The position numbers and the translations under genes were made by a program. Positions 2,749-33,931 of a stretch of 64,000 nucleotides of DNA are shown here, piece after piece. The stretch is from NCBI GenBank assembly GCA_021787665.1, contig JAJYLN010000001.1, forward strand, positions 1 through 64,000, given 5' to 3'. The notes under the pieces were generated by a model. That model made no database searches, had not been told where the DNA came from, and saw only the letters and a list, made by a program, of their open reading frames with translations. The number at the start of each line of letters is the position of its first letter. The stretch's first letter is position 1. This DNA comes from a bacterium. GTDB taxonomy: Bacteria; JAMCPX01.

Positions 2749-5658
2749 TCACATCTCTGCAAAGGTGTCGCGCACCTTGTCCATGTGGATCCTGAACTGC
2801 TCGGTCAGTCTCCCTTCTTCCGCTGCGTTCCTGATACCGATAGCGACATACGCCGTGCGCATGGATACACCGTACACCCGCGAGATCTGGATGGTCTTGA
2901 TCGTGGCCCACCTGAGGATGAATTTAAAGGCGAACCCGTACACCTTCTCATCGATCTGCCTGCGGTCCGCGGTCATTGCATCGGGATGAAAAGAGAGCAT
3001 AAGGTTGTGCACGATCCGGTGGACGAACCCCGCGTTGTAGATCTTTCGGTATCCGAACTGCAGGATAAGCCCGTTGAGCCATTCGAGGTACGAGGCGAGC
3101 ACGCCGCCCGAATTGGCAAGTATATCCGGGAACGACACCCTGCCCATGTCCTCCAGTATCTCTTCAGCCTCGGATGAGATCGGACCGTTCGCTCCCTGAA
3201 GGAGGTAGTCAGCCTCAAACATGCGGACAAACACATGCCTGTTGTCCGGCTCCTCATTGTTCGTGATCACCTCTTCGAGCGCCGCCGGTGCCACGACATC
3301 GACCATCGCCGTCAACGGGCGGACCTTGTCCGCCGGAAAGAACTCCGATCCGCCCATGAGAGCGCGCGGGACGTCCGCAAGCCTCGCTGTACCCTTGTCG
3401 CAGATCCCGCACAGCTCCGGGATACGCTGGATGCCGCGCTCGTTGACAAGGGTGCCGCTCACGTCCGACACCATCCTGATCCTGACGCCGATCTCATCGA
3501 GGACTCGTGCGAGTGAAGCGCCCACCTTGCCGAATCCCTGGATTGAAAAAGTTAGCATCTTTATCCGTTGGTGTGCTGAGGCAGAGAACGTACCGTCCTG
3601 CTTGATCGCCTCGGCAATCTTCGTGTCATCGGACCAGAGTTCCGGGTCGTTGAAGCTCTGGAAATTCTGCTGAGTCGCAAGCACCTCGACCAGTCCCTTC
3701 CCGGTCGCTCCAGCCCTGAGTGCAAGGCCTACAGCGCCTGGCTTCCCTGTGATCGAAGGGGAGCTGTACGCACGCACGAGAGCTCTGTCTGCAGCCAGCC
3801 GTTTCATGTCATCGGTATTCGCGGTATTGATGCCGAAATGCCCTTTCACGATGTTTGTTTCATGCGTGCCATCGTTGCCCCTCCGTACAATCGATCGTAC
3901 ATCCCTGAAGAGGTCGTCCGTGATCCTTTCGAATATGATCCCGATCTCCTCTCCTCCGATGCCCACATCGCCGGCCGGCACGTCAGAAAGCGGGCCTACG
4001 CCGGCTTCCCGGTACAGGAAATCCGCATAAGCCTCAAGTACATTCTTCCGAACTGCGGTCCTTTTTTCCTCCTCGGCACCGGCAAGGCGGATGTCACCGA
4101 GGATTCCTCCCTTTCCGATAGTATAGAAAGGGATGCCGAGACCGAGAGTCTTGAAAAGCATGTTCGTCGAGAGTGCTCCCTCCCCGGAAAAGGTGACATG
4201 TTCTTTGTCCGCCCTGATGCCTCCCTTGCCTATGCCGATGCCGTTCAGCCGGATGAACAGGTATTTCTCTCCGGTGAGCGGCTCGCTGTAGTCCCGATAA
4301 TAAATGTTGCGAAAGCGTATGAGTCTGATGATCTCTTCGTCCGTAAGGGAACGCGAGGGCCTGTCTTTCTCCCTTTCCAGAGGCACCGTCGCGGCGGAGA
4401 AGATATGCATGAGCGTCGACCAGTAATAGTCATTCTTCATGTCGTGCGTCGGGTTAAGAAGATAATGGCGGATAAGGCCGAACGCCCTCCTGCGGACCTC
4501 CTCGTTCGGCTCGTTCAGGAGGAGAACGAGCGGGATGAGGTATTCCTTCTGCTTGTTGCGCTGCATGACCCCGATCAGATCGAGCTTCTCGTAGTCCTTG
4601 GAGACGCTGATCTGGTCGAGGATAGTCTTGATCTGTCCTACCGAAATCGGCGAGGACTTGAGAAGAAGACACCGCGTATAAAGTTCGTTTTTCATGTACT
4701 CCTCGAGCTCATGGGTCAGGTATTCACTGTCCGCATAGGTTGAAATAACGATGAATTTCCTACCACTTAGCGAGAATGACTCGAAATATTGTCTGGTATG
4801 CGCGATCCCCCTGCGAGTAAATATCTTGTTGATGGTGCCGAAGTTAGCCTGGAACTTCTCGCGGGATATCCAGAGCATGATATTCTTCTCCGCACGCTTT
4901 CCGCTTCCACCGGACACCGGGTGCACGTAGATGTACATATCCTCGCCTCGACTCAGCAGGTCAAGGAATGCCCTGTAGGAAGAAAAGTAATGACTTATCG
5001 ACCGCAGCATTTCTTCCCTATCTATCGATTCCGCGAAACCCGCAGGCGCCGAAAGGACAAAGGAACGCACTTCCTCGTCCGTGAAAGCCATGGCGTCGGA
5101 ACGGAGGGCCCCCGCTACCAGCGTACACGCTTTTTCTATGACCGCAGGTGCTACCGCGTCTTCCTGTTGCTCCTTAAGGATGTACAGACGCCTGATGTCC
5201 CGGCGCCTGACATTGTTAAGGCTGAAAGACAAAAATCGGTACGATATGCCGGGATTACGCTTCATGGTTTCCTGGATGAGCCGGATAGTCTTCTCAATAA
5301 GGCCATTGGTCTCTGAGATCAGGAAAAGATGACGATTGTTTATAAATCCGCGGACATCGATCGTTGCGTACTCACCGCCTGCGCCGGTAGCTTCTGTTCC
5401 CTGATAACGATTGTGCTCGGCAAGGAAGGCGATCTCCTCGGTTGCCAGGGATGCGAGGCGGAACCCTCCCATCCGCACATCGACGAGCAAGGAATGGAGC
5501 TCGTGCAGGATGGCCTCGCCGGACAACTCAGAGTGAAGGGCAAGGAAGTCATACAGCCCCCTCACCTCTCCATAGGAAAAGGCGGGCGACTCGATATCCC
5601 TGAGCCAGCCCCGTATCGTCGCCTCAATGGCGTCGTACCCTTCCCGCATATGCCTCAC
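2749..5658 (-). CDS. Large NAD-type glutamate dehydrogenase (long form)
   Basis: Oxidative deamination of glutamate to 2-oxoglutarate and ammonium is the likely reaction. The C-terminal half carries the Glu/Leu/Phe/Val dehydrogenase fold: two glycine/lysine-rich segments GKGGIRAD (about residue 483) and GKGGILGD (about 522), a Rossmann segment FGKVGASLARVL (about 710), and the signature PDILANSGGV (about 846). The protein has 969 residues, about twice the classic hexameric enzymes and shorter than the roughly 1,600-residue GdhB class. The first 400 or so residues form an extension without a recognisable catalytic motif, probably regulatory. The modelled start is GTG; an ATG three codons downstream, with GAGG just before it, is an alternative. 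A TAAAAT -10-like element lies just upstream. Confidence 0.88.
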   Translation of the reverse strand: MRHMREGYDAIEATIRGWLRDIESPAFSYGEVRGLYDFLALHSELSGEAILHELHSLLVDVRMGGFRLASLATEEIAFLAEHNRYQGTEATGAGGEYATIDVRGFINNRHLFLISETNGLIEKTIRLIQETMKRNPGISYRFLSFSLNNVRRRDIRRLYILKEQQEDAVAPAVIEKACTLVAGALRSDAMAFTDEEVRSFVLSAPAGFAESIDREEMLRSISHYFSSYRAFLDLLSRGEDMYIYVHPVSGGSGKRAEKNIMLWISREKFQANFGTINKIFTRRGIAHTRQYFESFSLSGRKFIVISTYADSEYLTHELEEYMKNELYTRCLLLKSSPISVGQIKTILDQISVSKDYEKLDLIGVMQRNKQKEYLIPLVLLLNEPNEEVRRRAFGLIRHYLLNPTHDMKNDYYWSTLMHIFSAATVPLEREKDRPSRSLTDEEIIRLIRFRNIYYRDYSEPLTGEKYLFIRLNGIGIGKGGIRADKEHVTFSGEGALSTNMLFKTLGLGIPFYTIGKGGILGDIRLAGAEEEKRTAVRKNVLEAYADFLYREAGVGPLSDVPAGDVGIGGEEIGIIFERITDDLFRDVRSIVRRGNDGTHETNIVKGHFGINTANTDDMKRLAADRALVRAYSSPSITGKPGAVGLALRAGATGKGLVEVLATQQNFQSFNDPELWSDDTKIAEAIKQDGTFSASAHQRIKMLTFSIQGFGKVGASLARVLDEIGVRIRMVSDVSGTLVNERGIQRIPELCGICDKGTARLADVPRALMGGSEFFPADKVRPLTAMVDVVAPAALEEVITNNEEPDNRHVFVRMFEADYLLQGANGPISSEAEEILEDMGRVSFPDILANSGGVLASYLEWLNGLILQFGYRKIYNAGFVHRIVHNLMLSFHPDAMTADRRQIDEKVYGFAFKFILRWATIKTIQISRVYGVSMRTAYVAIGIRNAAEEGRLTEQFRIHMDKVRDTFAEM

Positions 5659-33503: not shown

Positions 33504-33548
33504 AAAATATTATTTCACACAAAATATTATTTCAAAAATATTATTTCA
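33504..33548. repeat. Triple 14-bp AT-rich repeat
   Basis: AAAATATTATTTCA occurs three times (33504-33517, 33521-33534, 33535-33548). Copies 1 and 2 are separated by CAC, and copies 2 and 3 abut. The array ends 2 nt before a perfect TTGACA. It could be an UP-element or the binding array of a regulator. Confidence 0.75.
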
Positions 33549-33550
33549 TC

Positions 33551-33577
33551 TTGACAAATCTATGTTTCTTATATAAA
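33551..33577 (+). promoter_or_regulatory. Candidate promoter after the AT repeats
   Basis: TTGACA (33551-33556) and TATAAA (33572-33577) are 15 bp apart, directly after the triple repeat. No convincing reading frame follows for 200 nt. The downstream 33600-33757 stretch holds several small hairpins (TGTCTTC/GAAGACA at 33655-33669, and a TCGGGTCC/GGGCC-CGA stem at 33732-33756). A small RNA or long leader is possible. Confidence 0.4.
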
Positions 33578-33752
33578 AAGAAAATAATGAGCATAGGTAA
33601 TCCCGAAATAAGAGGATATGATTATCACTACGGGGGCCAAGAAGTATAGTATGGTGTCTTCAGAAGACATTGAAGATAGTCACTCAAGCAACCGTCTGTC
33701 TTTGCACGGTCAATTTTCCCTGCATTTCTATTCGGGTCCTTCGCGTAGGGCC

Positions 33753-33781
33753 ACGACATTTGTAAACCAATCTGATATACT
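33753..33781 (+). promoter_or_regulatory. Extended -10 promoter of the 16-codon gene
   Basis: ACGACA (weak -35), 17 bp, then TATACT (33776-33781) preceded by TG at the extended -10 position. It predicts a leader of about 20 nt before the lysine-rich ORF. Confidence 0.5.
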
Positions 33782-33808
33782 ATAAAAACCAAAGGGGGGT
33801 GAAGTATA

Positions 33809-33859
33809 ATGGCTACAAAGAAGAAGGCGAAAAAAGCAGCAAAGAAGAAGAAGAAATAA
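33809..33859 (+). CDS. Lysine-rich 16-residue peptide
   Basis: The ORF encodes MATKKKAKKAAKKKKK, 11 lysines in 16 residues, resembling the tail of histone H1-like or polylysine DNA-binding proteins. Three independent signals support expression: an extended -10 promoter, a strong purine-rich ribosome site AAAGGGGGGTGA, and a 13-bp stem rho-independent terminator 31 nt after the stop. The TAA stop is clean, and no longer frame can be joined. A strongly basic peptide this short could bind nucleic acid or membrane. Alternatively the ORF could be a leader peptide, but no gene follows on this strand before the terminator. Function unknown. Confidence 0.6.
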   Translation: MATKKKAKKAAKKKKK

Positions 33860-33890
33860 ACTTACGTCTTGGAATATAACCACCTGCTTA

Positions 33891-33931
33891 GGGCTGAATT
33901 CCGCTTTCAACGGAATTCAGCCCCTTTTTTT
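33891..33931 (+). terminator. Rho-independent terminator
   Basis: GGGCTGAATTCCG / CGGAATTCAGCCC (13-bp perfect stem, 7-nt loop), then C and seven T. It ends the transcript of the lysine-rich peptide. The remaining 170 nt up to the acyl-CoA ligase stop are AT-rich with nothing recognisable. Confidence 0.88.

Follow-up and report, generated by a model that had tools for sequence, protein, structure and literature searches.

A probable 16-codon lysine-rich micro-gene with its own expression signals, conserved within one bacterial phylum and matched by pattern in others

Within the 64-kb stretch of bacterial DNA analysed here (the window), an open reading frame of only 16 codons is preceded by a strong ribosome binding site and followed by an intrinsic terminator. 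This arrangement raises the question of whether so short and monotonous a reading frame can be a gene, where its transcription would begin and what its product could do. An earlier note had proposed a dedicated transcription unit for a lysine-rich peptide, and the reading frame, the ribosome site and the 13-bp stem terminator that it described are all present at their positions (Table 1). The predicted peptide contains 11 lysines and 3 alanines among its 16 residues, the remainder being threonine and methionine. No other reading frame of 10-25 codons in the window reaches 60% lysine, and none of this kind arose in 300 order-3 Markov simulations of the window. Furthermore, the 450-nt region around it has a G+C content of 37%, compared with 56% for the window. 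A chance reading frame is rejected by the simulations (0/300) together with the third-position-biased variation described below, and AT-rich composition alone as its source is excluded by conservation. We consider it very probable (roughly 0.9) that the cassette is a genuine translated micro-gene.

Table 1. Features at and around the lysine-rich micro-ORF of the window.
Feature	Position	Strand	Conservation or basis
Likely true promoter: block CATCTTGACAAA (33547-33558), TTGACA (33551-33556), N15, TATAAA (33572-33577)	33547-33577	+	block invariant in 6/6
Putative short upstream ORF MSIGNPEIRGYDYHYGGQEV, possibly leaderless	33587-33649	+	start 9 nt after -10, 6/6 genomes
Extended -10 of the earlier note, TGATATACT, probably no promoter	33773-33781	+	lost in G001, not conserved elsewhere
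Ribosome binding site GGGGGGTGA	33794-33802	+	read directly from sequence
Lysine-rich micro-ORF MATKKKAKKAAKKKKK	33809-33859 (ATG 33809 to TAA 33859)	+	6/9 phylum genomes, single copy each
Intrinsic terminator: 13-bp stem, 7-nt loop, then T run	stem 33891-33923, element 33891-33931	+	
Antisense promoter TTGACA-N18-TATAAT, 12/12 sigma-70 consensus, pointing into the cassette	33986-33957	-	

The window's phylum is represented by nine genomes of a single family. The cassette DNA, used as a query, matched strongly in five of the other eight genomes, so that six of nine carry it when the window is included, always as one copy. All peptides fit MA[AT]KKKAKK[AT][AT]KKKK(K), and each is accompanied by a ribosome site and a terminator. 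The earlier note had suggested weighing codon against nucleotide conservation, and change proved to be concentrated at third positions, with 3, 0 and 11 variable sites at codon positions 1, 2 and 3 (P = 0.0007 against equal positions). Phylum members with a visible terminator all have the peptide; a terminator kept after loss of the peptide, which the note had held to count against its proposal, is not seen among them. Within the six genomes, the terminator stem GGCTGAA..TTCAGCC is confined to the cassette, and its inner pairs vary on both sides in relatives while the stem is kept. No copy was seen in two of the nine genomes (G002 and G005). In G001, which belongs to the same genus as the window, the cassette pattern is missing because the contig that carries the orthologous electron-transfer gene ends exactly at the ribosome site. 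More specifically, this contig (G001:C71) starts with CTCACCCCCCATTT, which on the other strand reads as a ribosome site GGGGGGTGAG that aligns with that of the window, and the GGTGA of the ribosome site is kept across phylum members, this contig end included.

The cassette keeps its identity across differing gene contexts. Its neighbours in the window are genes for a dihydroorotate-dehydrogenase-B-type electron-transfer subunit and an AMP-binding enzyme, while in genus g3 two other genes flank it and in G004 a neighbour resembles a transporter encoded elsewhere in the window; peptide and terminator are kept in 6/6 genomes despite these differences between genera. Gene context also bears on the idea of a lysine-codon attenuator, in which a leader peptide and terminator would detect charged tRNA-Lys and regulate the gene that follows. 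Attenuator leader peptides of the trpL and hisL type place a run of codons for a single amino acid before a terminator, as the micro-gene does, and in the betaproteobacterial family described below the unit lies 3' of a diaminopimelate-decarboxylase-type gene. Such attenuators, however, regulate a co-oriented downstream gene, which the micro-gene lacks. In the window, the gene that follows is encoded on the other strand, the lysA-type gene of the betaproteobacterial family is upstream of the unit rather than downstream, and the genes downstream of 65 loci are oriented + in 31 cases and - in 34. This random orientation largely refutes control of a downstream gene, and we regard an attenuator as very improbable.

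The dedicated transcription unit proposed earlier holds up, whereas its promoter and its extent have to be redrawn. The extended -10 element TGATATACT, to which transcription had been assigned, has 9/12 matches and is paired with a poor -35 (ACGACA); G001 has CTCTATACG in its place, a conserved equivalent is lacking elsewhere, and the assignment is probably wrong. The block CATCTTGACAAA, in turn, shows no variation among the six genomes that have upstream sequence, lies 216-261 nt 5' of the lysine-rich ORF, and is followed after 15-16 nt by a -10-like hexamer that varies (TATAAA, GTTAAT, GTTATT or GGTAAT). This conserved promoter, about 250 nt 5' of the micro-ORF, is likely the true one, and because of its position the unit would measure about 345 nt rather than the 180 nt given before. 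An ATG stands exactly 9 nt after the -10 in the same six genomes, a position that possibly fits a leaderless start, and opens putative ORFs of 13-20 codons, most of which have N-x-E-I-[KR]-G in common. The bulk of the leader is not conserved within the window's phylum, unlike the peptide. Just 5' of the conserved promoter, the window contains three near-tandem copies of AAAATATTATTTC (33504-33549), which are absent from the counterpart in G001. The earlier note had overlooked the upstream promoter with its short ORF, and likewise the antisense promoter and the occurrence of similar units in other phyla, both described below.

TTGACA is combined with five or more -10 matches at only three sites in the window, two of which flank the micro-gene unit. 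The second of these flanking sites is the convergent antisense promoter, whose TTGACA is kept in 6/6 phylum cassettes (10-12 of 12 matches, +139 to +153 from the ATG), including one at a non-syntenic locus. Convergent antisense overlap is a known layout of type I toxin-antitoxin systems, in which the toxins are usually hydrophobic membrane peptides (PMC6563280). A small ORF, its own terminator and, in the window's phylum, a convergent antisense promoter are shared with these systems, and retention of that promoter even where neighbours differ would suit a unit in which the free peptide is harmful and its mRNA is silenced by antisense RNA. Several observations speak against such a unit: the lysine peptide has no hydrophobic stretch, the cassette is single copy and has no match in viral contigs, the antisense promoter is not seen in the cassettes of the other clades, and no terminator for a putative antisense RNA was found near the unit. 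We therefore consider a type I-like system improbable.

To see how far the micro-gene extends, a strict codon pattern was applied to a collection of one genome per species and matched 70 loci. Most of these are stand-alone units, in which a strong ribosome site precedes an ORF encoding 13-19 residues; a terminator-like hairpin after the stop is likewise present in most. According to the record titles, they come from Alpha-, Beta-, Gamma- and Deltaproteobacteria, Acidobacteria, Omnitrophota, Elusimicrobia, Nitrospirae and others. Titles of metagenome bins are fallible, as illustrated by L084, which is titled Chitinophaga, yet has a unit of the betaproteobacterial type and a genome that falls in the betaproteobacterial family. 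At three loci (L094, L116 and L120) no ribosome site can be made out clearly, and these matches could be due to chance. The strict pattern prescribes the peptide, so that similarity between phyla is a product of the search itself; such matches do not demonstrate common descent, and convergence in a two-letter sequence is possible. Weak matches of the cassette DNA in other phyla (L008-L030) appear to be mostly low-complexity chance. A mobile or phage-borne element was rejected on the basis that no match was found in viral contigs, and none in plasmids searched with the window's cassette and with one alphaproteobacterial cassette.

Searches with leader DNA are free of the bias that the strict pattern brings. 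In the betaproteobacterial family, where the query consisted of leader DNA apart from two start-codon bases, 14 loci in 14 genomes were found (query included), and all 14 encode the peptide; length changes are whole codons, and the terminator is identical in kind throughout. These loci came from a family-level search, and an order-wide search with the same leader returned nothing outside the query genome. The alphaproteobacterial family gave 14 loci in 13 genomes, again including the query and again all encoding the peptide, with variants such as MAAKKKAKKKGKKKK and MAAKKKAKKKTAKKKKK. Taken together, the coding constraint and this unbiased retention show that the peptide is under selection.

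The genome-wide scans were pattern-based only. In 12 genomes checked with a relaxed pattern, it occurred once in ten, not at all in one and three times in one, the last including a second, longer lysine-rich ORF at two contig ends. Among 389 genomes a relaxed pattern gave 3 matches, a single one of which is an in-frame lysine-rich ORF (MAEKKAVKKKK); this version demanded GGAG no more than 10 nt from the ATG and misses the window's own unit too. With 3 matches in 389 genomes, the unit is sporadic rather than universal.

The transcripts of other clades bring in the possibility of a dual-function small RNA, in which the transcript would be the main regulator and the lysine ORF a secondary product or a translation-dependent switch. 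The betaproteobacterial leader (L140-L153) shows compensatory changes (CATCG/CGATG, in several forms) within a set of nested helices, as well as a hairpin capped by GAAA. The deltaproteobacterial units (L076, L078, L090, L091, L104, L110, L113 and L118) have promoters with 11-12 of 12 consensus matches, invariant long-range complements GCCTGAG..CTCAGGC that enclose the ORF, and a covarying hairpin. Because these transcripts are structured, the mRNA itself may act in several clades, and the structured leaders suggest that the RNA may be no less important than the peptide. The window's own leader of about 220 nt, with its conserved start, would also be in keeping with a regulatory transcript. 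The glutamine-II ('downstream-peptide') riboswitch motif places a structured leader in front of a very short ORF, and the betaproteobacterial family resembles it in this respect; the motif belongs to different clades, and no Rfam 15 family was found at any cassette scanned at the gathering threshold, the two hits being tRNAs elsewhere in the loci. A known RNA family was rejected on this result. What weighs against a primarily regulatory RNA, besides the lack of an Rfam family, is that in the window's phylum the leader is mostly unconserved while the peptide is conserved, and we regard this reading as rather unlikely.

Our preferred reading is that the peptide itself is the selected product. 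From the sequence we infer a transcript of about 345 nt that would start near 33585 and end at the terminator at about 33931, and whose translation would yield a lysine/alanine(/threonine) peptide of 15-16 residues with very high positive charge. Most likely, the peptide would act as a small, diffusible polycation and attach to nucleic acid, be it RNA, ribosomes or DNA; the long leader would set its level, to which in the window's phylum an antisense transcript made from the convergent promoter may perhaps contribute. Electrostatic attraction to nucleic acid is the simplest activity, because 11 of the 16 residues are lysine and the others are only alanine, threonine and methionine; as the function of the peptide, we hold such a mechanism tentatively, at slightly below even odds. 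The histone H1-like or polycation role put forward in the earlier note is chemically reasonable. Bacterial histone H1-like proteins (chlamydial Hc1/Hc2 and Bordetella BpH1) are lysine/alanine-rich and repetitive, and share with the micro-gene peptide a basic composition of the AKK type and the absence of an evident fold; they are, however, long proteins of roughly 100-200 residues, whereas here the complete gene has 16 codons (13-19 residues across loci). Several points weigh against this reading: a peptide of 16 residues may be degraded quickly, the distribution is patchy, with the absence from G002 and G005 as well as the sparse matches among the 389 genomes, the beta- and deltaproteobacterial leaders are structured, and the likeness between phyla stems from the search pattern.

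Another reading is a ribosome-associated microprotein, for which the actinobacterial ribosomal protein bL37 offers a comparison. This very short basic protein of 24 residues, likewise encoded by a small ORF, is partly helical, occupies an rRNA pocket near H89 and came to light solely as additional density in cryo-EM maps (PMC5876184). The single copy of the micro-gene and its strong ribosome site would agree with such a role. In contrast to bL37, the window's peptide comes from a different phylum and consists of K, A and T (with S, V, P and G in relatives), leaving no arginine, histidine or aromatic residue for specific rRNA contacts, and the micro-gene is patchily distributed. A bL37-like protein is accordingly a poor candidate, and the rivals that remain can be ordered with the dual-function RNA first, the type I toxin-antitoxin-like unit second and the ribosome-associated microprotein third.

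Short basic proteins and dual-function small RNAs are known kinds. A recurring gene of 13-19 residues of lysine and alanine with its own unit appears to be undescribed, as no such micro-gene is mentioned in the open-access papers searched. It would belong with the shortest conserved protein genes known to stand alone, under the length limits that gene callers usually apply, and its product, built almost entirely of one amino acid, recurs in many phyla. Should the peptide be abundant, it could be of consequence for the chemistry of the nucleoid or of RNA in many uncultured bacteria. A broader proposal would unite these loci as a widespread, unannotated class of single-copy bacterial micro-genes, in which a lysine/alanine peptide of about 16 residues and its structured or antisense-controlled RNA form a peptide-RNA regulatory unit in Proteobacteria, Acidobacteria, Omnitrophota and at least one further phylum; we offer it as speculation that is more probably wrong than right by a wide measure.

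Low-complexity micro-ORFs of this kind constitute a practical blind spot, as they elude profile searches and assemblies break there more often than expected: five of the 70 cassettes lie less than 100 nt from a contig end, compared with 0.92 expected (P = 0.0025). Contigs end at or near the lysine-rich ORF in L069, L077, L102, L103 and L106, and also in G001:C71. In a Methylomirabilota bin (L117), an apparent second copy of the ORF with the same ribosome site follows downstream of the match (3724-3765, minus strand), consistent with a tandem duplication. Finally, G001 contains a different lysine-rich micro-ORF, MACKTKPCKAKNTKKKKK (L017:1464-1520), directly 5' of a tRNA-like sequence with the anticodon GTT, as read by eye.
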